Shown piece by piece: positions 1 through 19,390 of a stretch of DNA of 35,994 nucleotides. Source of the stretch: Ignavibacteriaceae bacterium (GTDB lineage Bacteria; Bacteroidota; Ignavibacteria; Ignavibacteriales; Ignavibacteriaceae); NCBI GenBank assembly GCA_013388515.1, contig JACAFC010000189.1, positions 1 to 35,994 on the forward strand, in the 5' to 3' direction. A program made the translations under genes and the position numbers. The notes beneath the pieces were generated by a model that made no database searches, was not told the origin of the DNA, and saw nothing but the letters and a program-made list of their open reading frames with translations. Each line of letters begins with the position of its first letter. Position 1 is the first letter of the stretch.

Positions 1-2345
1 ATATTGAGCCGAACAGATTTAGACGAATTGGGATGAAATTACGAGTTGCTCAAGATCCTTTAATCAAATTATGGCAGCACAACGATAGACTTGAACATAA
101 AATGATTGAGTTACGGCTGGAACGAAGAAAAAAACTTGAATACTATTTTAAATTGAATAAGAACTTGCGAAAAACGCTGTACAACTTGATTCCTGTTATT
201 GTTAAAAATTCATCAAATCCCAAATTGATGATTCAAGCTGGGCTTTATCGGGATATTTTGCAGCGCTTTATACTTACACCAAGGATACATCAAAAATTAA
301 TTACTGCAAAAGATCAATTTGCTATTAATACCACTGTGCACAATATTTTTGAAATAAATGAATTATCAGGAAAATTTGGGAATCCTGGTATGGTACTTGG
401 CTTACAAGTAAGTATGTCAACCAATCCAGATGCTTTAATTTCTCTTGATAAAAAATTTAATTCCGAAAGAGAGCGAGTATTAAAGAATAATTTTACTGAT
501 GTTCCTAAAATATGGTCTATTCCCCTTTTCGAAGATATTGAGACAGTTCAAAACATTGACAACTACCTTTCTAAAATTTGGGAGTTTTCAATTCAAAGCA
601 GAAGCATAGATCAAGAAGTAAGAACCCGTTTCTCGGAAATATTATGTGAAATATTTATTGCAGGATCGGATTTGAGCCAGCAAGTTGGGCAAACTGCTGC
701 CGCTTTACTTTACAATACTGCAAAACATAAAACCATTGAATGGTTAGCAAAACGCGGTTTAACTTCCAACATAAGGATTAAATTAGGTTGCGGTGAACCT
801 ATGCAAAGACAGGGAGGATACTATGCTGATTTTTCTAGTAAACCAGCTTTCGTGAAAACTGAAACGACAGGAAAGTTATTATTTGAAAATCTTAAAGAAT
901 CAACGGTAAAAAGTACGGAGTTTGCAATCAGCCCTCTTCATGGTGTATTTGCGGGTGGAGATTTGAGAACACTTCAAAGTGCAATTGCTGAAAAAGTTAG
1001 ACAATTGACTCCTGCAGAAAGATCTCAATTATATTTTCATTTAAGAAAAACTCAGGATTTTTATCGCGCAGAATTAAATCGAGCCTCGGAACCGTTTATC
1101 GATACACGATTAGCTTACGAATCTAAAAGTTTGAAAGAACTTGAAAGATTAACACTCGGAAAGACCGATGAAGTCTTTAACGAGTTTGTGGATTTAACAA
1201 GTAAAAACTTCAAACAAATAATTTATGGAAACGAAGATGATGTTGTTGGAATTCATGTCATTTCTTACTTCCTCTCACGTGCAATGCCGATTTTAAGAGA
1301 TCGGCCTGTTGAAAGACCATCGAAAAGTATAAGTACAAACAAGGGGCAAAAGATTTTAGAGATAATTGCATCAACCATTCCTCTTTGTAAACACGGCAGT
1401 TTGCTTAGAGCAATAAGTCATAATAAAGCGCAGACTTTTGTTTTAGGCATCAATCAACTCTCAACCGGATTATTCAGAGCATTGAATCAATTTTCTCAGA
1501 AGGAATTTGTGGGAGGAAGTGGATATCAATTATTAACTGACCGCATACTTCCCCGTCTGCCTGTTTATGAAATACTGCAAACATTAAGAATACTTCAGGA
1601 TTGCAGTTTGAAGAATGTATCAAAATTTTCAAATGCTTTCCCTGCAGGTTTAACTGCTTTTGCACTGCTTCGAGAAGATATGGATTCACTGCCGCTTTTC
1701 ATTCCTTTGTTCCAAAAAGAATTATTGAGAAGGCATGGAGTAAACGTTACTGAATTTTTCAAGGATGATAAGTTTATAACAGAATTGCTCCCAACTGTTC
1801 GCCCCGATTTAGCTGTTCTGCTTCAGCCAGATTTATTCAATACAAAAATTGAATCTCTTCTTGGAAAATTTCATAGAAATATTTCAAAAGCTTGGATTGA
1901 TGATTTCACATCACTGTTAATTATTCCAGAGAAAATTACATACTGGCGTGAAAAAGTGTGGGCACTGCTTGAAGAACCCGTTAAAGAACAAGTAAAATCT
2001 TTTGTTGAACTTGCTGTCGCACTTAATACATTATCTAAGGATATTGATACGCGTGACTTTACTGCAGCAATTACTTCTGCAAAACAAAGTAAGATTGAAA
2101 CATCAATTGCATATCTGTTTAAAAGTGGTGTTGATGATTCCATGAGGGATTTTCTCTCGGCCGCAGTTCAATATTTAACACGCCTGCCAAGTCAAATGGT
2201 GGAAGTACCGATTGATATTGTACGCGCACTAAAAGAAGTTGAAAGAATTTTACGTATTGAAGAACAGGCTTTAACAAAATCCAAACAAGACCTGCTTAAT
2301 TTTTACCTATTGCAAATTGCTCATCATGTTGGCGATAATGGTTAA
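1..2345 (+). CDS. Divergent phosphoenolpyruvate carboxylase-like protein (5' end outside window)
   Basis: Probably makes oxaloacetate from PEP and bicarbonate, but this rests on motif resemblance only. Numbering from the ATG at 33: SIPLFED (162-168), FIAGSDLSQQVG (208-219) and GCGEPMQRQGG (252-262) fall in the same order as the IPLFED, RSDPAMNYG and GMGSAPFRGN blocks that I recall from archaeal-type PEP carboxylase. The Asp of the second block and an Arg in the third are kept. At 770 residues it is much longer than archaeal enzymes (about 500) and shorter than classical bacterial ones (about 880-930). The frame is open to the left edge and the ATG at 33 has no properly spaced ribosome binding site, so the true start probably lies upstream. 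The aminotransferase and PEP carboxykinase that follow use the same metabolites, which supports the call. The region after about residue 300 matches nothing I can name. Confidence 0.55.
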   Translation, partial: IEPNRFRRIGMKLRVAQDPLIKLWQHNDRLEHKMIELRLERRKKLEYYFKLNKNLRKTLYNLIPVIVKNSSNPKLMIQAGLYRDILQRFILTPRIHQKLITAKDQFAINTTVHNIFEINELSGKFGNPGMVLGLQVSMSTNPDALISLDKKFNSERERVLKNNFTDVPKIWSIPLFEDIETVQNIDNYLSKIWEFSIQSRSIDQEVRTRFSEILCEIFIAGSDLSQQVGQTAAALLYNTAKHKTIEWLAKRGLTSNIRIKLGCGEPMQRQGGYYADFSSKPAFVKTETTGKLLFENLKESTVKSTEFAISPLHGVFAGGDLRTLQSAIAEKVRQLTPAERSQLYFHLRKTQDFYRAELNRASEPFIDTRLAYESKSLKELERLTLGKTDEVFNEFVDLTSKNFKQIIYGNEDDVVGIHVISYFLSRAMPILRDRPVERPSKSISTNKGQKILEIIASTIPLCKHGSLLRAISHNKAQTFVLGINQLSTGLFRALNQFSQKEFVGGSGYQLLTDRILPRLPVYEILQTLRILQDCSLKNVSKFSNAFPAGLTAFALLREDMDSLPLFIPLFQKELLRRHGVNVTEFFKDDKFITELLPTVRPDLAVLLQPDLFNTKIESLLGKFHRNISKAWIDDFTSLLIIPEKITYWREKVWALLEEPVKEQVKSFVELAVALNTLSKDIDTRDFTAAITSAKQSKIETSIAYLFKSGVDDSMRDFLSAAVQYLTRLPSQMVEVPIDIVRALKEVERILRIEEQALTKSKQDLLNFYLLQIAHHVGDNG

Positions 2346-2508: not shown

Positions 2509-3726
2509 ATGAGTTTAAGTCTAATAGCAAAATCGATTAAAGCCTCCCCTACACTAAAGTTAAATGAGAAGTTCGCAATTCTCAAAGAAAAAGGTGATCC
2601 GGTAATTCACCTTGGAGGCGGAGAGCCTAAAAGCCGCATGCCTATGGATGCCATTCTTGCAACAGTTGCACACGTAAATACAGGTGAAGTTAGGTACGCA
2701 CCAGCTGATGGAATTCCGGCATTAAAACAGGCAATTATTCGTTATACAGAAGAATTTTATGAACGAAAAGTTAAGCCAGAAAACGTGATTGCCTCTGGCG
2801 GTGCAAAACAGGCAATTATGGTTGCCTTGCAGGCGATATTAAATCCTCAGGAAGAAGTCCTCTTCCCGGCACCTTACTGGGTCAGCTATCCAGATATGGC
2901 TAAACTTATTGGAGCTATTCCGGTTGCGGTATTACCTGAAGATGGAACTTTTTATCCAAGATTAAAAGATATTACAGATCGCGTAGGTTCTTATACAAAA
3001 GCTGTTATTATTAACAGTCCAAATAATCCCACAGGGGCTATGTACTCCGAAGAGTTTATTGCTGATGTGGTAGAATTCTGTGAGAAAAAAGATTTATGGC
3101 TGATAATGGATGATATTTATCATCGTTTAATTTTTGATGGTAAAAAACCAATTAACTGCTACAAGTATGCAAAAAAATTTGACGAGAATTCAAAAATTAT
3201 TCTCATCAATGGAGTATCTAAGCAATATGCGATGACAGGATTTAGAATTGGCTGGGCAGTTGGCAATAAAAAAGTGATTGAAGCAATGAGCAATATTCAA
3301 GGTCATCAAACTTCAGGACCATCAGTACTTCTGCAAAAAGCCGCAGTTGCTGCTTTGAACGGAATTCAATCTGGAGTGGAAAGTTTGCGTACCACATTGG
3401 AAAATAACAGAAATGTAATGATTGATCTGCTCAATTCTTTTGAAGGCGTGAAAGTAACAAAACCAGACGGCACTTTTTATTGTTTGGCTGATTTTTCTGC
3501 TTATGAGAAAGATTCCAATAAACTATCCGAATTTTTAATTGATAAAGTTCAAGTGCTAACCGTTCCCGGCAAAGAATTTGGATTGGATGGTCATTTAAGA
3601 TTAAGCTATTGCGGAACAATTAAAGATATTCAAGATGGAATTGAGCGTATGAAGTGGGCGCTCGATCCTAATTCAGCTAACGAACTTTACATTGGCGACA
3701 GAAAATTAGTGAGGGATTGGTCATGA
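2509..3726 (+). CDS. Class I PLP aminotransferase, aspartate aminotransferase-like
   Basis: Fold-type I aminotransferase, probably interconverting aspartate/oxaloacetate with glutamate/2-oxoglutarate in the cytoplasm. Visible motifs are the nucleotide-cofactor segment ASGGAKQA (95-102), NSPNNPTG (169-176), the Asp/Tyr pair in DDIYHRL (201-207), the PLP lysine in NGVSKQYAMTG (K238) and the substrate-carboxylate Arg in HLRLSYCG. The usual VGEPDF motif near the N-terminus is replaced by GGGEPKSRMP, so substrate choice may differ. It has a C-terminal extension of about 20 residues beyond the usual end. AGGA lies just upstream of the ATG. Its TGA overlaps the pckA ATG (ATGA), implying translational coupling. 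Substrate specificity cannot be settled from sequence; aspartate is favoured by the neighbours. Confidence 0.85.
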   Translation: MSLSLIAKSIKASPTLKLNEKFAILKEKGDPVIHLGGGEPKSRMPMDAILATVAHVNTGEVRYAPADGIPALKQAIIRYTEEFYERKVKPENVIASGGAKQAIMVALQAILNPQEEVLFPAPYWVSYPDMAKLIGAIPVAVLPEDGTFYPRLKDITDRVGSYTKAVIINSPNNPTGAMYSEEFIADVVEFCEKKDLWLIMDDIYHRLIFDGKKPINCYKYAKKFDENSKIILINGVSKQYAMTGFRIGWAVGNKKVIEAMSNIQGHQTSGPSVLLQKAAVAALNGIQSGVESLRTTLENNRNVMIDLLNSFEGVKVTKPDGTFYCLADFSAYEKDSNKLSEFLIDKVQVLTVPGKEFGLDGHLRLSYCGTIKDIQDGIERMKWALDPNSANELYIGDRKLVRDWS

Positions 3727-5372
3727 GTAAATACCTGGAATTCAACACACCGGCAACTAAGCAAGCAATGGAGCTTGCATCAGATTTCAGACTAAAAAAT
3801 CAAGGATTAACTGATCTTGATAGAGTTTTCTGGAATTTACCTTCCGAAGCTTTGTACGAAGAAGCAATCTTTAGGAATGAAGCAAAGCTAACAAAGCACG
3901 GGGCATTAGTTGTAAATACTGGAAAACATACAGCGCGTGCTGCTGCTGATAAATTTATCGTTCAAGAACAAAGTACAAATGACAAAATTTGGTGGGGAGT
4001 TTATAATCGCCCATTCAGTTCTGAAAAATTCAATCAGTTAATGGGCAGAGTACAGGCTTTCCTTCAGGGTGAAGAATTGTTTGTACAAGATTGTTATGTT
4101 GGTGCCGATCCCGAATACAGAATGCCAATTCGAATTATAACTGAAAAGGCTTGGCATAGTTTGTTTGCAAGAAATATGTTTATTACAACAGACAACAGAG
4201 ACGAACTAAAAAAGTTTGTACCAGATTTTACCGTAATTGCACTTCCGGGTTTTAAGGTTGATCCTTCTATAGATGGAACACGTACAGATACAGGAATCAT
4301 TTTAAACTTTGAGCAAAGAACTGCGATTATTGCAAATTCACTTTATGGCGGTGAAATTAAAAAATCAGTATTCACGCTGCTTAATTTTCTTCTTACATTC
4401 GAAGATGTTTTACCAATGCACTGTTCTGCAAATGTTGGCAATGATGGAGATGTAGCATTATTCTTTGGATTAAGCGGAACTGGAAAAACCACTCTTTCTG
4501 CTGATCCAAAAAGAAAACTTATTGGCGATGATGAACACGGCTGGAGTAACCAAGGTGTGTTTAATTTTGAAGGCGGATGTTATGCAAAAGTTATTCGTTT
4601 ATCTGCAGAGAGTGAGCCTGAAATTTATGCAACAACAAAGCGATTCGGAACAATATTGGAAAATGTTGTTTTCGATCCAGTAAGTCGTAATATTGATTTA
4701 GATGACGACAGCATCACCGAAAATACAAGATGTTCATACCCGCTTGAATTTATTCCGAATGTTGTACCGGATGGATATGTTCGTTCACATCCAAAGAATA
4801 TTATTTTCTTAACATGCGATGCAAGCGGAGTTATGCCTCCAATTGCAAAATTAAATCCTGAACAAGCTCAATACCATTTCATCAGCGGATATACATCTAA
4901 AATTGCTGGAACGGAGATTGGATTAGGAATTGAACCTCAATTAACTTTTTCTGCATGTTTTGGAGCACCGTTCATGGTTCGTCATCCATTTGAGTATGCC
5001 GCAATGTTAAAACAAAGAATGCTTAAGCATAAAGCAAATGTTTGGCTTGTGAATACCGGCTGGGTCGGTGGAAAATTTGGAGTTGGGAAACGTATTAGTA
5101 TTCGGCATACAAGAAACTTATTGAACGCCGCATTAGAAGGTAAACTCGACAAAGTTAAATACAGAAAAGATAAACTGTTTGGATTTGAAGTTCCGTTGAG
5201 CTGTCCTGAGGTTCCTGAGGATGTACTCGAACCATCCAACTCATGGGGAAATAAAAACGAGTACTGGAAAAAGTATGATGCACTCGCAGCAAGATTTATT
5301 GAGAACTTTAAACTTTTTGAAAAAGGAACTTCCGAAGAAGTTAAGAAAGCCGGACCGGTTAGGTTGAAATGA
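3723..5372 (+). CDS. pckA: Phosphoenolpyruvate carboxykinase (ATP)
   Basis: Converts oxaloacetate and ATP to PEP, CO2 and ADP, the first committed step of gluconeogenesis, or runs in reverse anaplerotically. The P-loop GLSGTGKTT (249-257), metal-site motif IGDDEHGW (267-274), YGGEIKKS and NTRCSYPLEFI are all present, and 549 residues fits the ATP-dependent family. The usual GRSPKDKF substrate loop reads TARAAADKF; its Arg (R72) and the terminal DKF are kept. I chose the ATG at 3723, which overlaps the upstream TGA, over the in-frame TTG at 3717, because GAGGG lies at a workable distance. Being coupled to an aminotransferase and following a PEP-carboxylase-like gene suggests joint control of the PEP-oxaloacetate node. 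Confidence 0.96.
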   Translation: MSKYLEFNTPATKQAMELASDFRLKNQGLTDLDRVFWNLPSEALYEEAIFRNEAKLTKHGALVVNTGKHTARAAADKFIVQEQSTNDKIWWGVYNRPFSSEKFNQLMGRVQAFLQGEELFVQDCYVGADPEYRMPIRIITEKAWHSLFARNMFITTDNRDELKKFVPDFTVIALPGFKVDPSIDGTRTDTGIILNFEQRTAIIANSLYGGEIKKSVFTLLNFLLTFEDVLPMHCSANVGNDGDVALFFGLSGTGKTTLSADPKRKLIGDDEHGWSNQGVFNFEGGCYAKVIRLSAESEPEIYATTKRFGTILENVVFDPVSRNIDLDDDSITENTRCSYPLEFIPNVVPDGYVRSHPKNIIFLTCDASGVMPPIAKLNPEQAQYHFISGYTSKIAGTEIGLGIEPQLTFSACFGAPFMVRHPFEYAAMLKQRMLKHKANVWLVNTGWVGGKFGVGKRISIRHTRNLLNAALEGKLDKVKYRKDKLFGFEVPLSCPEVPEDVLEPSNSWGNKNEYWKKYDALAARFIENFKLFEKGTSEEVKKAGPVRLK

Positions 5373-5474: not shown

Positions 5475-6791
5475 GTGAAAACTATATTATCAGTTTTTGT
5501 CATTTCAGCAAATTTTCTCACCACCCAACAAAATATGTGGCCACTCGCAAAAGGGAATCAATATCAATACTTCGAATATGGAACACATTCGGTCGGATAT
5601 TCATACGCTCTAAGAAGAGAAATGATTATTAACGATACTGTAATAAATCAAGTAAAATATTATTCTTTTAATAAATCAGGAGATTATTTTAGATACGATA
5701 AAGACTCCAACAAAGCATTTTTATGGTTTAATGGAGTGGAAGGTTTATACTTCGATTTTAATTTGTTAAATGGCAGTACCTTTTCTCAGTTTAAACATTC
5801 ATTACATTCTTATGGCGATGTTATAATTTCAACGGGAACGGAAAATTTCTTCGGGATGGAATATGAAACTAGCCAGTGGACAACATCTTATGGATTTAGT
5901 AGAAATTATGAACGGTTTGGTGATAATCTGGGAATTGTTGCCAGAGGAAGTAGTGTCTTTGGCCCCGGCCCAGACTCGGAAATAAATTCCTGGATTATTA
6001 ATGTCATATTATACGATAGTCTCGGCAATTACTCTTATTATTCGAATGCATATGAACCTACAATAACATTCCAACCTTTTTCTACTTTAGCGGATAGTTC
6101 TTTTCATTCATTTTCATCACAAGTAGATCATCATTATAATAGATTTAGTTCATTTCTCGGAAATTTAAGTGATGGTATTGTTTATATTGATTCAGTATTT
6201 GTAGAATTCTTTTACCAAAGAGATTCTATTAAAACATCCCCTCTCAGAATAGATGCACAAAGAATTCCTGTAACAAATTCTTATGAATTTTTGCTCCCCG
6301 TGGATACATTTTTAATTAAAACTGGCTACGAACTTTTATATAGGATAGGGGCAAAAGACAAAAGCATCATTCCAGTTTATTCGTACTCCCCCGATAGTGG
6401 ATACTATCAGGCAGTATATCAACCAACTTCGATTGAAGATGAAAGTTCCCGAATAAAAACTTTTTCCCTTTCCCAAAACTACCCAAACCCGTTTAACCCG
6501 GTTACAAAAATAGTTTATTCTATTCCTTCTGTAGGGGCACGATGCATCGTGCCCGTACTACTAAAAGTTTATGATGTGCTTGGGAACGAAGTTGCAACTT
6601 TGGTGGATGAATATAAGCCAGCAGGAAACTATGAGGTTGAATTCCAGTCGGTAATAGGCAATAAGCAGTTGGCAAGTGGAATTTATTTTTACCAATTATG
6701 GGCTGCGCCTAGCGGCGGACAAGTTGTTGATCCCGAATCAAGTTCTGGACAAGGTTTTGTGGAGACAAAGAAAATGATCCTGCTTCGATAA
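5475..6791 (+). CDS. Secreted protein with type IX (Por) C-terminal sorting domain
   Basis: The function of the body (residues about 20-315) is not recognised; it is rich in Tyr, Phe, Ser and Asn, as in extracellular beta proteins. A short hydrophobic N-terminus fits a Sec signal, although no strong cleavage site is obvious. The C-terminus is a type IX sorting domain: SLSQNYPNPFNP (331-342), then YDVLGNEVATLVDE, SGIYFYQL and a final ETKKMILLR. Such domains direct export across the outer membrane and are then cleaved. The start is GTG with AAGGGAG at 5461-5467; the ATG at 5470 is out of frame and stops at once. Two stretches interrupt the domain consensus: VGARCIVPV (353-361), encoded by a DNA palindrome, and about 18 residues near 411-428. 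Confidence 0.85.
   Translation: MKTILSVFVISANFLTTQQNMWPLAKGNQYQYFEYGTHSVGYSYALRREMIINDTVINQVKYYSFNKSGDYFRYDKDSNKAFLWFNGVEGLYFDFNLLNGSTFSQFKHSLHSYGDVIISTGTENFFGMEYETSQWTTSYGFSRNYERFGDNLGIVARGSSVFGPGPDSEINSWIINVILYDSLGNYSYYSNAYEPTITFQPFSTLADSSFHSFSSQVDHHYNRFSSFLGNLSDGIVYIDSVFVEFFYQRDSIKTSPLRIDAQRIPVTNSYEFLLPVDTFLIKTGYELLYRIGAKDKSIIPVYSYSPDSGYYQAVYQPTSIEDESSRIKTFSLSQNYPNPFNPVTKIVYSIPSVGARCIVPVLLKVYDVLGNEVATLVDEYKPAGNYEVEFQSVIGNKQLASGIYFYQLWAAPSGGQVVDPESSSGQGFVETKKMILLR
6531..6558. repeat. 28-bp palindrome inside coding sequence
   Basis: Positions 6535-6554 form a perfect 20-bp palindrome centred on ATGCAT. It extends to 6531-6558 with one mismatched pair. It begins exactly at a codon boundary and is read through as VGARCIVPV in the sorting domain of the secreted protein. 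The GGGCACGATG/CATCGTGCCC arms look like a dispersed short palindromic repeat that inserted in frame; I see no second copy in this window. Confidence 0.7.
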
Positions 6792-9291: not shown

Positions 9292-10710
9292 CTAAATCTC
9301 ATCCAATAATTTTTTGAACAGCTTGGATGATTTAATTTCCGGATATTCTTTTGCAAACTCATTTCTTATTGAAGGATCGAGCATAAAAGCCATCTTAAGA
9401 CAATCGATTGCTTCCTGTGTTTGATTAATGATAAAAAATACTTTTGACTTGCCGTAATAACTGGCTGCATCATCAGATTTAATGCGAGTGCAGTGATCAA
9501 AAGCATCAATTGCATCAATCCAAGAACCAATTTCTAAAAATGTTTCGGCTAAGTTAAACCAAATTTCAAAATTATCGGGCTCAATGTGAAGTGCTTGGCG
9601 ATAACTTTCAACTGCTGCTTTAAGTTGTCCAAGCGAATATTCAAGATCAGCTTTAGCGTACCAAGCATCTGCACAATTTTCTGAGAGAGAAATAGCTTTG
9701 TTGAAATCCTTCAAAGCCAGTTGATATTTCCCGACAGAATCAAAACAATAGCCGCGAGCTAAATAAGCTTCATAATAATTATCATTAATATTTATTGCTG
9801 CAGTATAGTTTTTAATTGCGTTAACAAGATCACCAAGTTCCTCATAAATATTTGCTATGTTGTAAAGAGCAGCTTCGTCTTCCCTGTCTATTTCATAAGC
9901 TTTCTGAAAACATTCAATAGCTTCATTATATCTCTGCTGGTCAGCCAATAAGTTCCCTTTATTAAACCATGCGCTGGCAAAATCATCTTTTATTGCAGTG
10001 GCAAGATCATAACTTGCAATGGCTTTTTCATAATTATTTAAACGGGTGTACATCACTGCTCGGTTATACCAGCCATTTGGATTGTATGGATCTTTGTCCA
10101 GAAAAGCTTCATAAGCTTCAAGTGCTTCTTCGGGTTCATTCATCATCTCATAACAAAATCCTAATTCGTAATATGCATCGGTATAAGAGCTGTTACGGGA
10201 AATAAGCTTTGAGAGATAATAAACAGCAGTTTCGTAGTCTTCCTTTTGCTGATGAATTAAACCAAGACTGAATAGAGCATCTTCATTATGCGGATCACTA
10301 GTTAATGCTTCTTCAAGCGATTTACGTGCTTGCGCAGTTAAACCAAGATTCTCCTCGGCAGAAGCTCTATCAATTAAAATTTCGGAGTCGCCCGGATTTA
10401 ACGAAAGAGATTTATTGTAACACTCAATTGCCTCTTCGAATCGATGAAGACCATTTAGAAAGAAGCCTTTCTTGAACCAATATTCGGAATTGTAAGGAGA
10501 GACATCGATAAGAAGATTCACAATGTAAAGTCCATCAGAATAGCGTCCATTTTCCCCGCACATTTGAAGCACTTCTTCAGCAGCTTCCATTAATTCAAAT
10601 ATGCTTCCAGAGTCAACTAATTCTATGCAGCGTTTGATCTCTTCGTCAACATTTTTACCTTCTGCAAACAAGCCCCCTTGTTCACTGTATTCTGAATCAA
10701 AATATGCCAT
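9292..10710 (-). CDS. TPR-repeat protein with 11 tandem repeats
   Basis: 472 residues. After an acidic N-terminal segment (about 1-75) it consists of 11 back-to-back 34-residue tetratricopeptide repeats up to about residue 450. They show the usual W/Y..L/G/Y..A/F..A..P pattern, for example SAWFNKGNLLADQQRYNEAI. There is no signal peptide or membrane segment, so it is probably a cytoplasmic scaffold. The partner is unknown. GGAG sits seven bases before the ATG. It lies between sucC and aroE on the same strand but with more than 200 bases on both sides, so an operon is not evident. Confidence 0.9.
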   Translation of the reverse strand: MAYFDSEYSEQGGLFAEGKNVDEEIKRCIELVDSGSIFELMEAAEEVLQMCGENGRYSDGLYIVNLLIDVSPYNSEYWFKKGFFLNGLHRFEEAIECYNKSLSLNPGDSEILIDRASAEENLGLTAQARKSLEEALTSDPHNEDALFSLGLIHQQKEDYETAVYYLSKLISRNSSYTDAYYELGFCYEMMNEPEEALEAYEAFLDKDPYNPNGWYNRAVMYTRLNNYEKAIASYDLATAIKDDFASAWFNKGNLLADQQRYNEAIECFQKAYEIDREDEAALYNIANIYEELGDLVNAIKNYTAAININDNYYEAYLARGYCFDSVGKYQLALKDFNKAISLSENCADAWYAKADLEYSLGQLKAAVESYRQALHIEPDNFEIWFNLAETFLEIGSWIDAIDAFDHCTRIKSDDAASYYGKSKVFFIINQTQEAIDCLKMAFMLDPSIRNEFAKEYPEIKSSKLFKKLLDEI

Positions 10711-10869
10711 CCGAATCTCCGTAAGTTATATACGCAAAAAAACTAACGCTATTCAAACCTAAAATCAAGATGTGTAAACAATAAATAACAGGGCAATTTT
10801 TCTCAAGATTTTTGATGGTTTAAAGAGCTTCTCTAATTACATACTCAGTTGGGTGAGCACAAAATATGT

Positions 10870-10895
10870 GCCGAGTATAAATTCTTAAACTCGGC
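10870..10895 (-). terminator. Possible terminator hairpin after sucC
   Basis: 7-bp perfect arms (gccgagt at 10870-10876 and actcggc at 10889-10895) surround a 12-base loop, about 40 bases past the sucC stop on its strand. On that strand the stem is followed by acatatttt, a weak T-rich tail. The rest of the gap 10711-10936 shows no gene. Confidence 0.4.
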
Positions 10896-10936
10896 TTAAA
10901 AAATATTAAAAATCGAGTATAAAGCCTAAAATTTGA

Positions 10937-12100
10937 CTAGCTGTGAAGTATCGAGGTAACTTTTTCTGCAGCATCTTTGAGGCTGCTAGCAACTTCAAAG
11001 TTCAAACCCGAATTTCGCAAAAGCACTCCTGCTTCCTCAGCATTTGTTCCTTCAAGCCGCACAACAATAGGCACATGCACGTGCATCTCTTTAGCTGCAT
11101 CAATTACACCTTCAGCTACTCTATCACATCTCACAATTCCACCAAAAATATTTATGAGTATTGCTTTAACATTAGGATCCGATAAAATTATTTTAAAACC
11201 ATTAGCTACAGTAGTTTTATTTGCACCTCCGCCAACATCTAGAAAGTTAGCCGGCATACCACCTGCAAGTTTAATAATGTCCATTGTAGCCATAGCTAAC
11301 CCGGCACCGTTTACCATACACCCAACATTACCATCAAGTTTTATATAATTCAAATTATATTTTGATGCTTCAACCTCAAGTGGATCTTCTTCATCAAGAT
11401 CTCGATATGCTAAAATATCAGGATGACGGTTAAGTGCATTGTCATCGAAGTTCATTTTAGCATCAAGTGCCAAAACCGCTCCTTCCTTTGTAACAACTAA
11501 CGGATTAATTTCTGCTAATGAAGCATCGGTTTTTTCATATGCATCATATAACGCAAGTAAAAACTTAACTGCATTCTTCAGTTGATCACCAGATAAACCT
11601 AGAGCATAGGAAAGTTTACGGGCTTGGTATTGCTGTAATCCTAGTTCCGGTTCAACTATTTCCTTGATTATTTTCTCAGGAGTCTCTGCAGCAACTTTTT
11701 CTATTTCCATTCCACCTTCGGTTGAAACCATTAAAACATTTTTTGACAATGAGCGGTCCAGCGTGATTCCCACATATAACTCCAGTTCGATATTGATCCC
11801 CTGCTCAATTAACAATCTTTTTACGGTTTTTCCTTCTGGTCCAGTTTGGTGTGTAATTAAGGTCATGCCAAGCATATTTTGAGCAAATTCTTTAACTTCA
11901 TCTAGGCTTTTAGCAACCTTAACACCACCACCTTTCCCCCTTCCTCCAGCATGAATTTGTGCTTTTACAACCCATAAATTTCCGCCAATTTCTTGGGCAG
12001 CAGTAACTGCTTCATCGACTGAAAATGCTACTTTACCTTTTGGTACGGCAACATTATATTTTTTTAAAATTTCTTTAGCTTGATATTCATGAATTTTCAT
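10937..12100 (-). CDS. sucC: Succinyl-CoA synthetase (ADP-forming) beta subunit
   Basis: Beta subunit of the TCA-cycle enzyme that links succinyl-CoA cleavage to ATP formation. 387 residues matches the family. It begins [17 protein letters not shown], has the ATP-grasp segment [17 protein letters not shown], and near the C-terminus the phosphate/CoA region [26 protein letters not shown] and [15 protein letters not shown] precedes the ATG. The alpha subunit sucD, which is often adjacent, is not in this window, so the two subunits are encoded apart. Confidence 0.97.
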
Positions 12101-12157
12101 TTAAATCCTTATCATTAGTTTATGATTAGTAATGATTTCTAATTTAAAGATTGTGGT

Positions 12158-12239
12158 TAAAGCCAACATGGGTTAACATTATATTCACCCCAGAGTAGAA
12201 GCCGGGGTCAAAAAATCTAAAAAAAATATCCGGGCTTTA
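12158..12239. repeat. Repeat-like nested inverted repeats between sucC and pruA
   Basis: Outer arms taaagcc (12158-12164) and ggcttta (12233-12239) enclose a second pair, acccc (12187-12191) and ggggt (12204-12208). The GC-rich blocks stand out in this AT-rich gap and resemble degenerate REP-type elements built on GGCTTTAG. It could serve as the 3' end signal of pruA on the minus strand. No other copy was found here. Confidence 0.4.
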
Positions 12240-12267
12240 GTCCAAAATATAAACAACACTGTAATAT

Positions 12268-13818
12268 TTACTTAACTTTCTCGCTCATCAATTTCGCTTG
12301 CAAGAATAAAAGTAAATAATCTCTTCCGCCAGCTTTAGAATCCGTACCGGACATGTTGAAACCACCAAATGGGTGACCTCCGACTAAAGCCCCAGTACAT
12401 TTTCTGTTGAAATATAAATTACCAATTAACAATTCTTTCTTCGCACGCTCAATTTTCTTTCGATTCTTTGTGTATACTGCGCCTGTTAGACCATATTTTG
12501 TATTGTTAGCAATTTTTAAGCTCTCATCAAAGTTTGGTGACTTAATAACTGCTAGCACAGGTCCAAAAATCTCCTCCTGCGAGATTCGTGCATTTGGTGA
12601 TACATCAGTATAAACGGTTGGCTTGATGTAAAAGCCATTACCCTCGGCTTTTGAACCACCATTCAGTAATCTGCCTTCGTTTTTACCTATTTCAATGTAT
12701 GATAATATACTTCTTTCTGCACCAGCACTAACTACCGGTCCCATTCTAAAATTATCTTCAGCAGGACCAATCTGAATTTGATCTACCGCAGATTTTAATT
12801 TTTCAACAAATTCATTGTACACAGCAGCATCAACAATTGCACGAGAACAAGCTGAGCATTTTTGCCCTTGAAATCCAAATGCAGAAGCAACAACTCCAGC
12901 TACAGCATCATCAATGTTAGTTTCCTTGTCTACAATTATACTATCCTTACCACCCATCTCACAAACAACTCGTTTCAGCCATATTTGTCCAGGTTGTACT
13001 TTTGCAGCTAATTCATTGATATGAATACCTACTTCCATCGAACCAGTAAAAGCAATGAAACGCACTTTTGGGTGTGCAACAAGATTGTCGCCAACTTCCC
13101 CACCCGATCCAGGTAAAAAATTAAGTACACCACTAGGCAGACCCGCTTGCGCCATTATTTCATAAAATAAATATCCCATCATTGGGGTATCACTGGAAGG
13201 CTTAAGTACAACTGTATTACCAGATACAATTGCTGCTGAAGTCATTCCAACTAAAATCGCAAATGGAAAATTCCATGGTGGAATAACAACTCCAACTCCG
13301 AGCGGTATATAAACTAACTCATTTTTTTCGCCCTTCACGGGAGTGAGTGGCTGCTTAGAGGAATATCTTAATATTTCACGAGCATAGAATTCTAAAAAAT
13401 CAATTGCTTCAGCAGTGTCTGCATCGGCTTCAGAAAAATTCTTTCCTGCTTCGAGAATCATCCAAGCGTTTATCTCAAATCTTCTTTTTCGAGCAATACT
13501 TGCTGCTTTAAAAAGTATCCTAGCACGTTTTTCAGCTGGAACATACTGCCATTCTTGGAATTTATTTAATGCCGAATCTACAGCAAGATTCACCAACTCA
13601 ACAGTCCCTTTTGAAAAGCTCGCTACAATTTCATCCTTATTGGAAGGATTGTATGAATTGAATTTATTCTCTGTCTGGTATTCTTTACCATTAATAAATA
13701 AGTTATAACTGGCTCCAAGTTTTTTTCTTACTTCTAGTAAAGCTTTTTTTTGTTTTTCACTGTTTGATTTAACCGAAAAATCAAGTATTGGTTCATTCTT
13801 GAAAGGTTTAACTTTCAT
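12268..13818 (-). CDS. pruA: 1-pyrroline-5-carboxylate dehydrogenase
   Basis: Oxidises glutamate semialdehyde/pyrroline-5-carboxylate to glutamate with NAD, the second step of proline degradation. It has the aldehyde dehydrogenase fold with PPWNFPFAI (180-188), the cofactor segment VVLKPSSDTP (203-212), FTGSMEVG (257-264), the general base in CEMGGK (E287) and the nucleophile in GQKCSACSR (C321). The C-terminal GGHPFGGFNMSGTDSKAGG and the long 516-residue form mark the P5C dehydrogenase branch rather than generic ALDH. AGGAGA precedes the ATG. No proline dehydrogenase gene is nearby. The 274-base gap to the divergent acyl-CoA ligase gene should hold both promoters, but I cannot pick convincing boxes. 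Confidence 0.93.
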   Translation of the reverse strand: MKVKPFKNEPILDFSVKSNSEKQKKALLEVRKKLGASYNLFINGKEYQTENKFNSYNPSNKDEIVASFSKGTVELVNLAVDSALNKFQEWQYVPAEKRARILFKAASIARKRRFEINAWMILEAGKNFSEADADTAEAIDFLEFYAREILRYSSKQPLTPVKGEKNELVYIPLGVGVVIPPWNFPFAILVGMTSAAIVSGNTVVLKPSSDTPMMGYLFYEIMAQAGLPSGVLNFLPGSGGEVGDNLVAHPKVRFIAFTGSMEVGIHINELAAKVQPGQIWLKRVVCEMGGKDSIIVDKETNIDDAVAGVVASAFGFQGQKCSACSRAIVDAAVYNEFVEKLKSAVDQIQIGPAEDNFRMGPVVSAGAERSILSYIEIGKNEGRLLNGGSKAEGNGFYIKPTVYTDVSPNARISQEEIFGPVLAVIKSPNFDESLKIANNTKYGLTGAVYTKNRKKIERAKKELLIGNLYFNRKCTGALVGGHPFGGFNMSGTDSKAGGRDYLLLFLQAKLMSEKVK

Positions 13819-14092
13819 GGTTTCTCCTAATAAAAATTAATCAAAAGATAGTGGTAAAACTTAGTTCTTTTGGGTATGATAAACAATTTTTATTCTTAAC
13901 ATAAAGTCTAGGTTTTCTTTTAATTTGTTCAAAAAACAAAGATTTTTGTCAAACTTTGCTGTACTTAAATCTGCTCTATTGAATTTATCAAAAGAAACTA
14001 TTAGTATTTTTATAAAAAATAAAATATTTTGGCAACCCTAAATTATTAGCAACCGATAATTATCTATTTCTCTAAAAAAAGTAGGAGTAGTT

Positions 14093-15907
14093 ATGGCACT
14101 CTTAGCGAATTTTAAAACCATTCCTGAGATGTTTGTTTTTCTTACGGAAGAATATGGAAAACAAACAACAAAAAACCTCATGTACAGAAAAGTTGACAAC
14201 AAATACAAAGGAATTTCATATGGTGAATTCAAGGAGCAAACAGAGTTATTTGCTTTAGGTTTGGCAGCTTTAGGTGTAACAAAGGAGGATAAAGTTGCCA
14301 TAATTTCGGAAAACCGACCTGAATGGGTTTATTCCGATATGGCAATACTTGGTTTAGGCGCCATAGATGTTCCCATTTATCCCTCGCTTACGGCTGAGTC
14401 AATTGAGTTTATTCTAAACAACTCTGAGTCCAAAGGAGTTATAATTTCAACAAAGTTTCAATTGAACAAAGTTTTGAAGATAAAGCAAAACTTACGTTAT
14501 CTTAAGTTCATTATTGTGCTTAACGAAACTGATACTAATCATGAAGAAAAATTCATCTATACTTTTAAAGAAGCACAGGAATTAGGAAAAACCTTCAAAA
14601 CTACTGATCATTACTATTTCGCTAACAAAATAAAAGCCGTTAAGGAAAATGATCTATGTACAATAATCTATACTTCAGGAACCACTGGTGAACCAAAAGG
14701 AGTGATGCTAACACATCACAATATTATTTCAAATGTTAAAGCTGCTCTGGAAACCTTCCCGATAAGCGAGATGGATATTTTTCTATCTTTTTTACCATTA
14801 TGTCACATTTTTGAAAGAATGGCAGGATACTATACTGCGTTTTCATCAGGTGGACAAATATATTATGCTGAAAGTATTGAAACAGTTGCTCAAAACTTAC
14901 TTGAAGCTCATCCAACAATTGTTACTTCTGTGCCAAGATTATTCGAAAGAATCCATTCCAAAATAATTAAAAATGTTGAGAGTCAACCTGAGAAGAAACA
15001 GAAAATATTTTATTGGGCGATTGAAATTGGTAAAACATATGCAACAGCAAAAAAGGCAGGCAGAGTACCCATTTCTCTCGCAGTTAAGCAGAAACTCGCC
15101 GATAAACTCGTCTTTAAAAAATTAAGAGAAAAAACTGGTGGAAACTTAAGATTCTTTATATCAGGCGGCGCTGCCTTGTCTAGGCACCTAGGTGAATTTT
15201 TTGAAGCTGCTGGACTAAAAATTATTGAAGGTTATGGATTAACAGAATCCTCTCCTGTAATTGCTGCAAACAGAGTTGACGATTACAAATTTGGAACTGT
15301 AGGCAAACCATTCCCCGGTGTAGAAGTAAAAATTGCTTCTGATGGCGAGATATTGGCTAAAGGTCCAAATATCATGCAAGGTTATTATAAAAATAAAAAG
15401 GAAACAAATGAAGTTTTGCATGATGGCTGGCTTCATACTGGTGATATTGGTGTATTCGATGCTGAAGGCTTTTTAATGATTACCGACAGAAAGAAACATC
15501 TGTTCAAAACCTCCACTGGCAAATATATTGCTCCAACTCCAATCGAAAACCTTTTCTTGAGCAGTAAATATATTGATCAATTTGTTTTAATTGGCGACCG
15601 AAGAATGTTTCTTAGTGCTCTAATTGTTCCCGATTTTGAAGCAATAAAAGAATATGCGGACTCCCACAAAATTAAATACAACAGTGTTGAAGAACTTTTA
15701 AGTATGAAAGAGATTTATGAATTGTTCGATAAAGACATGGGGCAATTGCAAAAGAAGCTGGCAAACTATGAAAAAATTAGAAAGTTTAAGCTTTTAAATC
15801 GTCCCTTCTCAATTGAGACAGGAGAAATTACTCCAAGCATGAAAATAAAACGCAAATTTGTAGAAGATCAATATGCTCAATTAATTGAGGAGATGTACAA
15901 GGATTAG
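14093..15907 (+). CDS. Long-chain fatty acid-CoA ligase (AMP-forming)
   Basis: Activates fatty acids to acyl-CoA through an acyl-adenylate. The AMP-binding motif YTSGTTGEPKGVMLTH (193-208) is intact, followed by FLPLCHIFER, GYGLTESSPV, LHTGDIG and the hinge DRKKHLFKTSTGKYIAPTPIE. 604 residues and this hinge sequence fit the FadD15-like, eukaryotic-style long-chain ligases common in Bacteroidota. It has no membrane segment, so it is probably cytoplasmic or peripheral. GGAG precedes the ATG. It is transcribed divergently from pruA and followed closely by a palindromic repeat. Confidence 0.92.
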   Translation: MALLANFKTIPEMFVFLTEEYGKQTTKNLMYRKVDNKYKGISYGEFKEQTELFALGLAALGVTKEDKVAIISENRPEWVYSDMAILGLGAIDVPIYPSLTAESIEFILNNSESKGVIISTKFQLNKVLKIKQNLRYLKFIIVLNETDTNHEEKFIYTFKEAQELGKTFKTTDHYYFANKIKAVKENDLCTIIYTSGTTGEPKGVMLTHHNIISNVKAALETFPISEMDIFLSFLPLCHIFERMAGYYTAFSSGGQIYYAESIETVAQNLLEAHPTIVTSVPRLFERIHSKIIKNVESQPEKKQKIFYWAIEIGKTYATAKKAGRVPISLAVKQKLADKLVFKKLREKTGGNLRFFISGGAALSRHLGEFFEAAGLKIIEGYGLTESSPVIAANRVDDYKFGTVGKPFPGVEVKIASDGEILAKGPNIMQGYYKNKKETNEVLHDGWLHTGDIGVFDAEGFLMITDRKKHLFKTSTGKYIAPTPIENLFLSSKYIDQFVLIGDRRMFLSALIVPDFEAIKEYADSHKIKYNSVEELLSMKEIYELFDKDMGQLQKKLANYEKIRKFKLLNRPFSIETGEITPSMKIKRKFVEDQYAQLIEEMYKD

Positions 15908-15923
15908 TACTAAAGAAATTTGT

Positions 15924-16026
15924 AAATCGTTAAAACGGTTGGTTTAATAATCAGCTCCCTTTCTGTTCGGGATTAATCCCGAACAGAACATCCAAAAGTT
16001 ATACATAAAAACCGTTTCAACGGTTT
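15924..16026. repeat. Composite palindromic element after the acyl-CoA ligase gene
   Basis: Two outer 17-base arms (15924-15940 and 16010-16026) are reverse complements at 15 of 17 positions, each itself near-palindromic around aaccgtt/aacggtt. They enclose a perfect 28-bp palindrome, 15961-15988, centred on GATTAATC. The unit begins 17 bases after the stop codon. It resembles a REP/BIME-like or small MITE-like element and could also end transcription. The remaining stretch 16027-16227 shows no gene or other structure that I can identify. Confidence 0.7.
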
Positions 16027-16227
16027 GATAATATTATCTTGTGAATTTTTGAAGTGTAAATCAAATTTATTGGAAGCCAACACGCACAGCTAATTGAATA
16101 ATTAATTGAGGTTTCGAATATTTCTGAACGAATGTAAAATTCACTTTTTAATAACGAGTTTGAACAACTTCTCCCGAGTTATTTGGAATAAAATATCGTT
16201 CGGCATTATTGATTTATTTACCCATTT

Positions 16228-16776
16228 ATGTTGAAGACATTGAGATTTCTTTTCATTTTATTTTTCATTATTTCATCATTTACTCACCCTCAAAAGAATA
16301 AATTGAAAATTGATTCATCCAAATCTCTTCCGATCTTGACAGTAGAATCCTTGTCAAATGCTCAGTATCGAGTTGGTAATTATTTAAATTTAATTAGACT
16401 TTATGATGGTGCTTACGTATATCCTATGGGTAAACAATATTCAGATCGAGATTTTTATATTATCTATGATCGACAGACTTATTGTAAATTGGATGGAGAT
16501 GATCTTATAGATGCAATTGTTATTTTGTGGGAAAAGTTTGGCGGTAGTGAATACTGGCCGTATATAGTTCCAGTTCTTAATAAAAATGGAGTCCCTTATT
16601 CATTAAAATCCTTTCCCTTACCTGACAGAACAGAAATCAAAAGAATTTATAAAAAAAACTCCATTATTTATCTTGAACTTGTGGTTCACGATAAAGATGC
16701 CCCCCCTTTTTACCGAAGTAAGAATGAAACTTGGAAATTAAAATTAGAAAAGAATGAATTTTTAAGAATAGACTAG
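16228..16776 (+). CDS. Small secreted protein, GDxxxDAxV-type hypothetical
   Basis: 182 residues with a strong N-terminal signal peptide (about 1-20, hydrophobic LRFLFILFFIISSF). The mature part has the layout of a widespread uncharacterised secreted family: an opening TVESLSNAQY, then LIRLYDGAY, an acidic CKLDGDDLIDAIVILWEKFGGSEYW block (the GDLNGDGxxDAxVxL motif of the family, here altered) and a VVPVLN-like IVPVLNKNGVPYSL. The function of that family is not known to me. The Asp-rich loop might bind calcium. No Shine-Dalgarno is evident at the ATG. The gene stands alone between a repeat and a transporter. Confidence 0.7.
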   Translation: MLKTLRFLFILFFIISSFTHPQKNKLKIDSSKSLPILTVESLSNAQYRVGNYLNLIRLYDGAYVYPMGKQYSDRDFYIIYDRQTYCKLDGDDLIDAIVILWEKFGGSEYWPYIVPVLNKNGVPYSLKSFPLPDRTEIKRIYKKNSIIYLELVVHDKDAPPFYRSKNETWKLKLEKNEFLRID

Positions 16777-16891
16777 TTCGACAAATAAACTTTTGTAAAT
16801 GTAAAATTCAATAAAATACAGCAACACTGCTAAATAATAATTTGCTTTAGAGCATGGATAAAATTGCCTGTTTAACGAAAGTCAATCCGTA

Positions 16892-17839
16892 TTGTTCAAT
16901 AACATAATCTTCACTGCTAACATAGTCGCTCCTGTCTTTTTAATTGTTTCACTTGGGTACTTGGCAAAGCGACTAAAAATAATCAATGAAAATTTTGTAG
17001 AGGTTACGTCCAAGTTTGTTTTTAATGTTTCGCTTCCGGTTTTCATCTTCTTAGAAATTATAAATATCGATTTGTCAATAGTATTGGAAATTGGACAAAT
17101 CGTTTACATTTATGTTGGGACAATAACAACCTACCTAATTGTGTGGTTTGTCAGCAGTTCTTTTATCAAAGATGGAAAAAATCTCGGGGTATTCATTCAA
17201 GGTGCTTACAGAAGCAATTATGCAATTGTCGGACTTGCAATCATCTCTAATCTTTTAGGTGAAGACGCACTGGGAAAGGCATCAATAATACTTGCATTTA
17301 TCCTGCCTCTCTACAACGTTCTTGCAGTAATTGCCTTAACAGTCCCTCTGCGAAAAGAGAGAAAAGTTGATCTGAAAACATCTTTGTCTGAAATTATTTT
17401 TAATCCTTTAATCCTGGCGGTTATTTTTGCATTACCCTTTTCATATTTTAAAATTCAACTGCCGGAATTGATTTTAACAACCGGAGAATATCTTTCAGAT
17501 CTTGCTTTGCCGTTAGCATTAATTGGAATTGGCGGGTCGCTTAACCTCGAGTACATAAGAAAAGCTTCGGGACTTGCATTCACCGCCTCAGCTATCAAAA
17601 TAATTATCATTCCTATAGTCTTAACCTATGGCGCTTATTTGTTTGGTTTCAGAAATGATGACCTTGGAATTATGTTCGTGATTTTCGCTTGTCCAACAGC
17701 AATTGTAAGTTTCATCATGGCGGAGGCGATGGGTGCAAACTCAAAACTTGCCGGAAATATTGTGCTTATCACAACAATCGGTTCAGTTTTTACTTTTGCG
17801 ATTGGAATTATTTTGTTGAAAAGTTTAGGATTGATTTAA
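16892..17839 (+). CDS. AEC-family transporter (auxin efflux carrier type)
   Basis: 315 residues with about ten hydrophobic membrane segments, beginning IVAPVFLIVSLGYLAKRL. This opening, with FVFNVSLPVFIFLEI, GAYRSNYAIVGLAI and the closing half ALPLALIGIGGSL, is typical of AEC permeases in the inner membrane. Family members carry organic acids, amino acids or other anions; the substrate here cannot be inferred. The only in-frame start codon after the upstream TAA at 16859 is TTG at 16892, with a weak ribosome binding site, so the start is uncertain. It converges on the alkaline-phosphatase-like gene. Confidence 0.88.
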   Translation: MFNNIIFTANIVAPVFLIVSLGYLAKRLKIINENFVEVTSKFVFNVSLPVFIFLEIINIDLSIVLEIGQIVYIYVGTITTYLIVWFVSSSFIKDGKNLGVFIQGAYRSNYAIVGLAIISNLLGEDALGKASIILAFILPLYNVLAVIALTVPLRKERKVDLKTSLSEIIFNPLILAVIFALPFSYFKIQLPELILTTGEYLSDLALPLALIGIGGSLNLEYIRKASGLAFTASAIKIIIIPIVLTYGAYLFGFRNDDLGIMFVIFACPTAIVSFIMAEAMGANSKLAGNIVLITTIGSVFTFAIGIILLKSLGLI

Positions 17840-17862
17840 TCAGAATCTTTAAAAACTAGTAC

Positions 17863-19149
17863 TCACTCCAACCACACACCGAACAAAGTTAAGTACATAA
17901 TTCTGTAAATATCGGTGTTATCAATTTTGCCATGCATTTTTTCTGCGTTTAGACCGTTAGCACGTGCAACAACGGCACCACTCAAATCACCTGAGCTTGC
18001 CCACACAATGCCAAATGGAAAAGTTCTTCCGGACTTATCAGGTTTAGAGATAAACGGCAAAGTTCCAGTACCATTTATTCCGTCCATGGGAGCACCATTG
18101 TGATCTTTGGGAGGCAGAGGAATATTCTTATCAAGACTATCTACTTCGTAACCAGCTGTCGCTAATCCGCCGGCTTCACTATCAGCGGCTGTAATCAACA
18201 TAGTGCTAGGATGAGATTCATAAAATTTCAGCACTTCACCAATTGCATTGTCAGCATTTAGAAGGGCTTCAATTTTGCCGTTCGCGTTATTTTTATTTGC
18301 AAAATTATCAGTTCCTTCTTCTTCGGCAACTAAAAGAAATTGGCCTTTTGCTGACAGGAAATCCAATGCAAACTTAACCATTTGATTGAGACGCGGAGCT
18401 GTTTCAATATAATTACTCAATCCAGCAGAGATTAAGTCTTCCTCAGTCTCATCATTAAAAGTATGGCTTGCTGCGAAAACTCCTAAAACTTTTTTCTCAT
18501 GAATCGATGTTGCAAGCAATTCTTCCTTAGTGTAAATAATTTTGTATTCATTCTCTGCTGCCCATTGAATAAGATTCAATCCATCCATTCTTTTTCCTTC
18601 GCAAAATCTGCCTTTAACTCCAATAGGAAGCATCCATTCCTCACCACCAGAAAGGATAATATCCACACCTGATTGAATTACATCTTTGGTTATCAATTCA
18701 TACATATTTCTCTTTTCGCGGCTCGAAACAAATACGGCAGTGCCTGGTTCAATAATAGAGCCAGAATTGATCAACCCAGTATAAATACGATTCTGCATGG
18801 CTTCTTGCATTATACTCATTTTTTTCCCTGATCTGGAAATTGGAATTTCGTTGTCGATCATTCCAAAATCATGAAGGTCGGCTTTTACACCATAAGCATG
18901 AATCGTTGCACCTGCATTTGAGGAGGAAGTTATCCTATCTCTAATGTGCCCTTGATACAAACCAATACCGGATAGTTTATCCCAGTTAATATCCGAATCT
19001 GGACCAACAGTTAGGATTCTTAATGCATTCCAATCAGCTAAAGATGTTCCATCAGGATGGATAAAAATTACATTCCCAGTTTTTGGTTGAGGATGTACAA
19101 AAGAACAAAAAAACAAAAAGAAAAAAAACGAGAATAAAATTCGCCTCAT
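17863..19149 (-). CDS. Alkaline phosphatase-fold protein with altered metal ligands
   Basis: Secreted or periplasmic, with a signal peptide at 1-20 (RRILFSFFFFLFFCSFVHP). The fold is recognisable: HPDG (31-34) carries the first metal Asp (D33), TSSSNAGATIHAYGVK (74-89) matches the nucleophile segment (S77), EEEG (276-279) holds the Glu, and AADSEAGG (321-328) replaces the usual ADHETGG. By my hand alignment the zinc ligands equal to E. coli D327, H331, H370 and H412 read F, N, S and D. Activity may be lost or rely on other metals. I moved the start from an upstream ATG at 19179 to 19149, where GGGAG lies six bases before the ATG and the signal peptide begins. 428 residues. Confidence 0.8.
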   Translation of the reverse strand: MRRILFSFFFFLFFCSFVHPQPKTGNVIFIHPDGTSLADWNALRILTVGPDSDINWDKLSGIGLYQGHIRDRITSSSNAGATIHAYGVKADLHDFGMIDNEIPISRSGKKMSIMQEAMQNRIYTGLINSGSIIEPGTAVFVSSREKRNMYELITKDVIQSGVDIILSGGEEWMLPIGVKGRFCEGKRMDGLNLIQWAAENEYKIIYTKEELLATSIHEKKVLGVFAASHTFNDETEEDLISAGLSNYIETAPRLNQMVKFALDFLSAKGQFLLVAEEEGTDNFANKNNANGKIEALLNADNAIGEVLKFYESHPSTMLITAADSEAGGLATAGYEVDSLDKNIPLPPKDHNGAPMDGINGTGTLPFISKPDKSGRTFPFGIVWASSGDLSGAVVARANGLNAEKMHGKIDNTDIYRIMYLTLFGVWLE

Positions 19150-19390
19150 TAATAACTCCCAAAAATTTAAGATGATCATGCTTAAAGATATATAATTGTT
19201 TTGAGGATGTAGATTAAAAAATGATTAATTATTTGAAAAATTTTATTTCTCTAATATTAGAAATAGATTTAATAAATGTTTACAAAAGAGAAAAAACTTG
19301 AATAAATATTTCTATATGATTTTAGAAAATTTTATTAAAATAGAATAAGGATGAATTCAAATTAAAGAGACTAAACTGCAAATTAAATTC

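Follow-up and report, generated by a model that had tools for sequence, protein, structure and literature searches.

A fused aminotransferase and phosphoenolpyruvate carboxylase-like protein paired with an SPFH/Band_7 gene in Ignavibacteria and Calditrichota

The window, a stretch of 35,994 nucleotides from an Ignavibacteriaceae bacterium, opens inside a gene and carries its 3′ portion; the product is a fusion protein composed of an aminotransferase and a phosphoenolpyruvate carboxylase (PEPC)-like part. Two known folds, those of PEPC and of class I/II aminotransferases, are joined here in a new architecture in which the PEPC part stands on its own branch, and the gene is paired with an upstream gene for an SPFH/Band_7 protein. 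Our best reading, to which we give an even chance of being right, is a bifunctional enzyme that would convert phosphoenolpyruvate (PEP) and HCO3− to oxaloacetate and then to aspartate, probably scaffolded at the membrane by the SPFH partner.

A review of the PEP node recognizes only two PEPC lineages, bacterial/plant and archaeal (PMC8100219), the genome paper of Melioribacter roseus mentions phosphoenolpyruvate once, as PEP carboxykinase (PMC3534657), and no description of an aminotransferase-PEPC fusion was found in the open-licence PMC literature. PEPC stands at a central point of carbon fixation, and the mixed motifs of this family are relevant to the kinship of the two known types; the fusion, if active, would place the fixation of bicarbonate and the transfer of nitrogen on a single polypeptide. 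Coordinates of all features are collected in Table 1.

Table 1. Features of the window, with window coordinates, and of the SPFH/Band_7 partner gene, with the coordinates of the contig or locus named.
Feature	Position	Strand	Remarks
PEPC-like C-terminal part of the fused aminotransferase-PEPC protein	3..2345	+	780 aa; 5′ end open at contig edge
LTPRIHQ	273..293	+	Arg 282-284 tentatively E. coli Ppc R396 (by eye); P and R invariant, 37/37
SIPLFED	516..536	+	Glu 531-533 corresponds to E. coli E506 (metal ligand); invariant, 37/37
FIAGSDLSQQVG	654..689	+	Asp 669-671 corresponds to E. coli D543 (metal ligand); invariant, 37/37
GCGEPMQRQGG mobile-loop motif	786..818	+	Arg 807-809 corresponds to E. 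coli R587; invariant, 37/37
LRDRPVERP	1290..1319	+	Arg 1302-1304 tentatively E. coli R699 (LGSRPAKR), by eye
LLRAISHNKAQ	1401..1433	+	Arg 1407-1409 tentatively E. coli R713 (RAIPW), by eye
C-terminal GDNG	2316..2342	+	Cf. the RNTG terminus of classical PEPC
Stop codon TAA of the window ORF	2343-2345	+
Separate class I/II (aspartate-type) aminotransferase	2509-3726	+	PF00155, 2e-65
ATP-dependent PEP carboxykinase	3717-5372	+	PF01293, 4e-216
Secreted protein	5475-6791	+	Sub-threshold Por_Secre_tail match; SQNYPNPFNPVTKI segment; ordinary for the group
SPFH/Band_7 partner (A7 family), same genome	G000:C57:3287-4240	-	Example in L012: 775-1728

Extent of the gene

The window is the entire contig C47, one of the 293 contigs that make up the 3.9-Mb genome, and the contig edge cuts the gene. 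The front half of the protein (1,087 aa, ending ...LTNQLEN) is encoded on the minus strand of contig C57, right where that contig stops, and comparison with the related locus L012 indicates that ~10 codons are missing from the junction of the two contigs. In related genomes the same 780 residues form the end of single ORFs of 1,866 to 1,922 codons; an uninterrupted ORF of about 1,840-1,890 aa is present in many genomes, and the full ORF is intact in the closed genome of M. roseus P3M-2 (G213; 3,300,414 bp). Judged from these sequence comparisons, the intact protein of the source genome is about 1,870-1,878 residues long. The first-pass annotation had described a protein of more than 770 residues; that length was an effect of the contig edge, and the real chain is more than twice as long. 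When compared with L012, the gene differed at 25/11/54% of codon positions 1/2/3, and this excess of third-position substitutions indicates that it is under purifying selection.

PEPC-like C-terminal part

A model of the PEPC part (~1,080 residues) was of moderate quality (pLDDT 69, pTM 0.60). In Foldseek its first 31 matches were all PEPCs, bacterial/plant and archaeal, with E-values of 2.5e-9 to 1.2e-4; E. coli 1fiy was best (2.5e-9), archaeal-type 3odm appeared from 8.7e-6, and the first match that was not a PEPC had E=0.011. VIA likewise placed PEPCs at ranks 1-23 (Z 17.1-13.7), led by 3odm_B (Z 17.1, 453 residues at 7.8 Å), with plant PEPC reaching Z 16.6 and E. coli 1jqn 13.7. The C-terminal ~1,080 residues are accordingly modeled as a PEPC barrel with its helical fold, and the C-terminal half that had initially been reported as unmatched falls within the rest of this large predicted fold. 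The comparison of a predicted structure with both PEPC types, proposed at the outset as a check, thus returned a PEPC fold.

Sequence profiles gave a different picture. The window protein matched Pfam PEPcase_2 (PF14010) at E=0.0032 and 16.5 bits, where the cut-off is 25 bits, and TIGR02751 at E=0.026 and 13.4 bits, where the cut-off is 146 bits; the weak PEPcase_2 match was present in just 1 of 8 members of the fusion family. No match to PF00311 (bacterial/plant PEPC) above its cut-off was found in the source genome or in members of A2, so that the proposed profile check yielded a weak archaeal-type match but left both the archaeal and the classical profiles below cut-off. The C-terminal part was not recognized above a PEPC cut-off by any profile library searched, and PDB searches by sequence alone with the PEPC part as query found nothing useful. 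Because profile libraries miss this part, annotation pipelines can be expected to label such genes plain aminotransferases. Scores from hhalign against classical PEPC were not significant; the register nonetheless set PLFED, GSD and the RQGG (R587) loop on E. coli 503-590, and a longer alignment additionally placed VHPTQ on AHPTE. For the C-terminal third of the protein, the hhalign register differs from the motif mapping made by eye.

The roles of H138, R396, E506, D543, R581, R587, R699 and R713 in E. coli Ppc are established. The three motifs first pointed out in the window, SIPLFED, FIAGSDLSQQVG and GCGEPMQRQGG, do occur in that order, and each carries an invariant equivalent of one of these residues (Table 1). 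Across 36-37 members H909 (HPTQ), D998 (GDWDG), E1260, D1306 and R1352 (L012 numbering) were invariant, H909 in 36/36; the HPT and DWDG motifs fall in the portion of the chain upstream of the window part. Candidates for the PEP-binding residues R396, which we take to contact the PEP phosphate, R699 and R713 were also invariant and lie in similar motifs, in a register set by eye; hhalign did not confirm the C-terminal register. The fusion protein lacks equivalents of E. coli K546, H579 and R581.

These motifs mix the two PEPC types. On the bacterial/plant side (Ppc, PF00311; 1fiy), the fusion protein shares the best Foldseek E-value, large size, the HPT motif, with TVHPTQ resembling classical AHPTE, and PLFE and GSD in register, but it lacks a PF00311 match, has not kept K546/H579/R581 and reads DWDGS where the classical enzymes read DRDGN. 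On the archaeal side (PpcA; 3odm, from C. perfringens), it shares the predicted fold and the Glu/Asp metal ligands in order, its DWDGS resembles DFEGK, and its GCGEPMQR has the same spacing as GCGSLPFR(G), in which 3odm carries a Cys at the position of E. coli R581. It differs in lying below the PF14010 and TIGR02751 cut-offs, in being fused to an aminotransferase, in carrying HPTQ rather than HPDN, and in a PEPC part of about 1,080 aa as against about 500-530 residues. The archaeal-type chain is about 55-60 kDa (PMC8100219), and the fusion protein, with its chain of about 1,870 aa, lies outside this range. The PDB sequence of 3odm contains PILGCGSLPFRG, TQHPDN and MIDFEGK; these motifs were retrieved with query peptides patterned on archaeal PEPC, and the comparison uses the retrieved PDB sequence only.

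Since the motifs of both types are mixed, the protein was placed between them, and it passed the sequence test of neither. Our best explanation makes the PEPC part a third branch of the family, not classified before, that stands between the bacterial/plant and the archaeal types. These results support the original suggestion that the divergent protein, with its PEPC-type fold, belongs to a branch of its own.

N-terminal aminotransferase part

A PF00155 match covered about residues 430-770 in all 8 of the members tested. For residues 1-785, AlphaFold2 gave a model (pLDDT 79, pTM 0.82) that matched class I/II aminotransferases with Foldseek E-values down to 1.9e-14 and, by VIA, with Z up to 29.7 over 377 aligned residues. 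The PLP-site residues N528, D556, Y559, K603, R611 and R747 were invariant in 36/36 sequences. The protein thus resembles fold type I aminotransferases (Thermus LysN 2egy, aspartate aminotransferases) in fold and in all PLP-site residues, the Schiff-base lysine among them. Likeness to aminotransferase subfamilies was spread over several unrelated ones, none dominant and all far below cut-off.

Unlike other class I/II aminotransferases, the protein carries, besides the PEPC fusion, an inserted and degenerate large domain. In the predicted model, residues ~143-330 (L012:2178-2741) form a second alpha/beta unit resembling an aminotransferase large domain. It had no match in profile searches or PDB sequence searches, and hhalign gave a weak alignment of this unit to the second copy, in register, setting GKIF(S) on GKIF(R). 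The NNPHN and PLP lysine motifs are missing from it, whereas the HFxLKGTP and SLARE segments are invariant. An independent, active aminotransferase at this position was rejected on the lack of a profile or PDB match, the lack of a conserved lysine and the weak hhalign result. The N-terminal ~785 residues are modeled as one class I/II aminotransferase that carries an additional large domain in degenerate form. This dead domain probably arose by internal duplication and stands in for the second subunit of the normal aminotransferase dimer; its invariant KGTP segment would sit at the position of a partner-subunit loop. The N-terminal part would then have one PLP-dependent active site, with the dead copy probably acting as the partner subunit.

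SPFH/Band_7 partner

In 26/31 loci examined, a gene of ~320 aa ends shortly upstream of the fusion gene on the same strand, with 0-170 bp from its end to the fusion-gene start in most loci; additional Calditrichota loci whose contigs reach far enough upstream likewise had the partner gene there. The partner encoded at L012 scored 27.1 bits against PF01145, above the 23.6-bit cut-off, and 10/12 partner members matched this profile at E<=0.01. Besides its Band_7/SPFH match, the partner protein combines a hydrophobic stretch at the N-terminus with an extended, charged tail that is probably helical, and from its sequence it is predicted to be a membrane protein with a single span. In these features it is like SPFH/Band_7 proteins at large; it differs from them as a distinct subfamily tied to the fusion protein. 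No PDB relative of the partner family was found by sequence.

The partner-family profile and the fusion protein occurred in identical sets of genomes, 22 of the 197 sampled in the class; the chance probability of such identity is about 10^-29 before correction for shared ancestry. The partner adjoins the fusion gene wherever the contig extends far enough for the check, as in G053, G126 and G508. Such strict pairing suggests a central-metabolic enzyme held at a membrane microdomain. The partner is also retained upstream in a very divergent Calditrichota member (L089 in G532, branch length 1.97).

Distribution and neighboring genes

The fusion gene was present in 15/395 genomes of a phylum-wide sample, all 15 in the class of the source genome, in 22/197 genomes of the class-wide sample, and in 12/40 genomes of a sample of Calditrichota, the phylum of L021. 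One member of the last sample, a 4,978,541-bp contig (G528), is presumably Caldithrix abyssi; with M. roseus, this puts the gene in cultured bacteria, in which it is directly testable. In the tree of the fusion protein one change separates Calditrichota from Ignavibacteria, which makes descent with many losses the simplest history. Fusion proteins on MAG contigs labeled Acidobacteriales and Candidatus Aquidulcis (L014, L020) nest among ignavibacterial sequences, a placement that means transfer or mis-binning. Plasmid carriage gave no match.

Canonical PEPC was found in 44/197 genomes of the class and occurs together with the fusion protein in 6 of the 22 genomes that have the latter (Fisher p=0.59). 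Replacement of canonical PEPC by the fusion protein was rejected, as co-occurrence across the 197 genomes showed no anticorrelation; nor does canonical PEPC track the fusion protein. Pyruvate carboxylase (PF02436) was considered as an alternative and discarded; it was present in 8/197 genomes of the class and in 0/22 of those with the fusion gene.

The gene order first noted downstream, an aspartate-type aminotransferase followed by PEP carboxykinase, is real in the window but is shared with no more than two other loci, L015 and L062, which makes 3 of about 35, all of one clade; a conserved operon with this pair was rejected. The constant neighbor is instead the upstream SPFH/Band_7 gene, which in the source genome lies on the other contig, C57. 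The one-clade neighbors nevertheless fit a PEP-oxaloacetate-aspartate theme. Beyond the fusion and SPFH genes, the flanks were unrelated between most loci, and no other biosynthetic gene was conserved beside the pair in the loci compared. Membership of a defense system was rejected, as PADLOC gave no match to the fusion protein and a weak match (E=0.024) to the SPFH protein.

Proposed function and alternatives

In the bifunctional reading, the C-terminal part would carboxylate PEP with bicarbonate to give oxaloacetate and phosphate, and the aminotransferase part, for which oxaloacetate is a candidate substrate, would convert it to aspartate with glutamate as donor. The order of the fused fold types fits the consecutive steps PEP to oxaloacetate to aspartate. 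Oxaloacetate is unstable, and because of this its transfer within a single chain would be sensible; the intermediate may be handed directly from one part to the other, while the SPFH partner would scaffold the enzyme at the membrane. The main weak points of this reading are the moderate PEPC model, the equivalents of R396/R699/R713 assigned by eye and the lack of a replacement pattern with canonical PEPC. The fuller proposal, that a third class of PEPC, fused to a pseudo-dimeric aminotransferase, works with the SPFH protein as a membrane machine making aspartate from PEP and bicarbonate, is held more tentatively, and we lean somewhat against it.

Both domains may alternatively be active in a specialized biosynthesis, and not in the supply of aspartate, at an SPFH-marked membrane site, in which another electrophile would react with PEP or a rarer amino acid would be made. 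The patchy occurrence of the two genes as a cassette whose flanks are otherwise unrelated speaks for this, as do the canonical PEPC alongside the fusion protein in part of the genomes, the loss of the K546 and H579 equivalents and an aminotransferase nearest to several subfamilies at once; the invariance of the PEPC metal ligands, HPT motif and R587 loop and the lack of a further conserved biosynthetic gene weigh against it, and we regard it as unlikely. Less likely still is a PEPC-like part that has lost carboxylase function and serves as a PEP- or aspartate-sensing, regulatory module that controls the aminotransferase to which it is fused as well as the SPFH protein. Very divergent sequence, the absence of some E. 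coli catalytic residues and an obligate partner of scaffold type would suit such a module, but conservation is higher at the metal site than elsewhere in the chain, a pattern seldom expected of an enzyme that has lost its activity. That the long ORF is an artefact of assembly or gene calling and the window protein a stand-alone 780-aa enzyme is scarcely credible: the gene is divided between two contigs in its own genome and its frame is split in a few others (G036, G485), but a single uninterrupted ORF is present in dozens of independent genomes, including the closed chromosome of the M. roseus isolate, and catalytic motifs are encoded on the front half, upstream of the part in the window.

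Remaining window content

Genes at 9292-19179 of the window encode a TPR protein, a succinyl-CoA synthetase-like ATP-grasp protein, an aldehyde dehydrogenase, an AMP-binding enzyme, a Mem_trans transporter and an alkaline phosphatase, all ordinary by Pfam.
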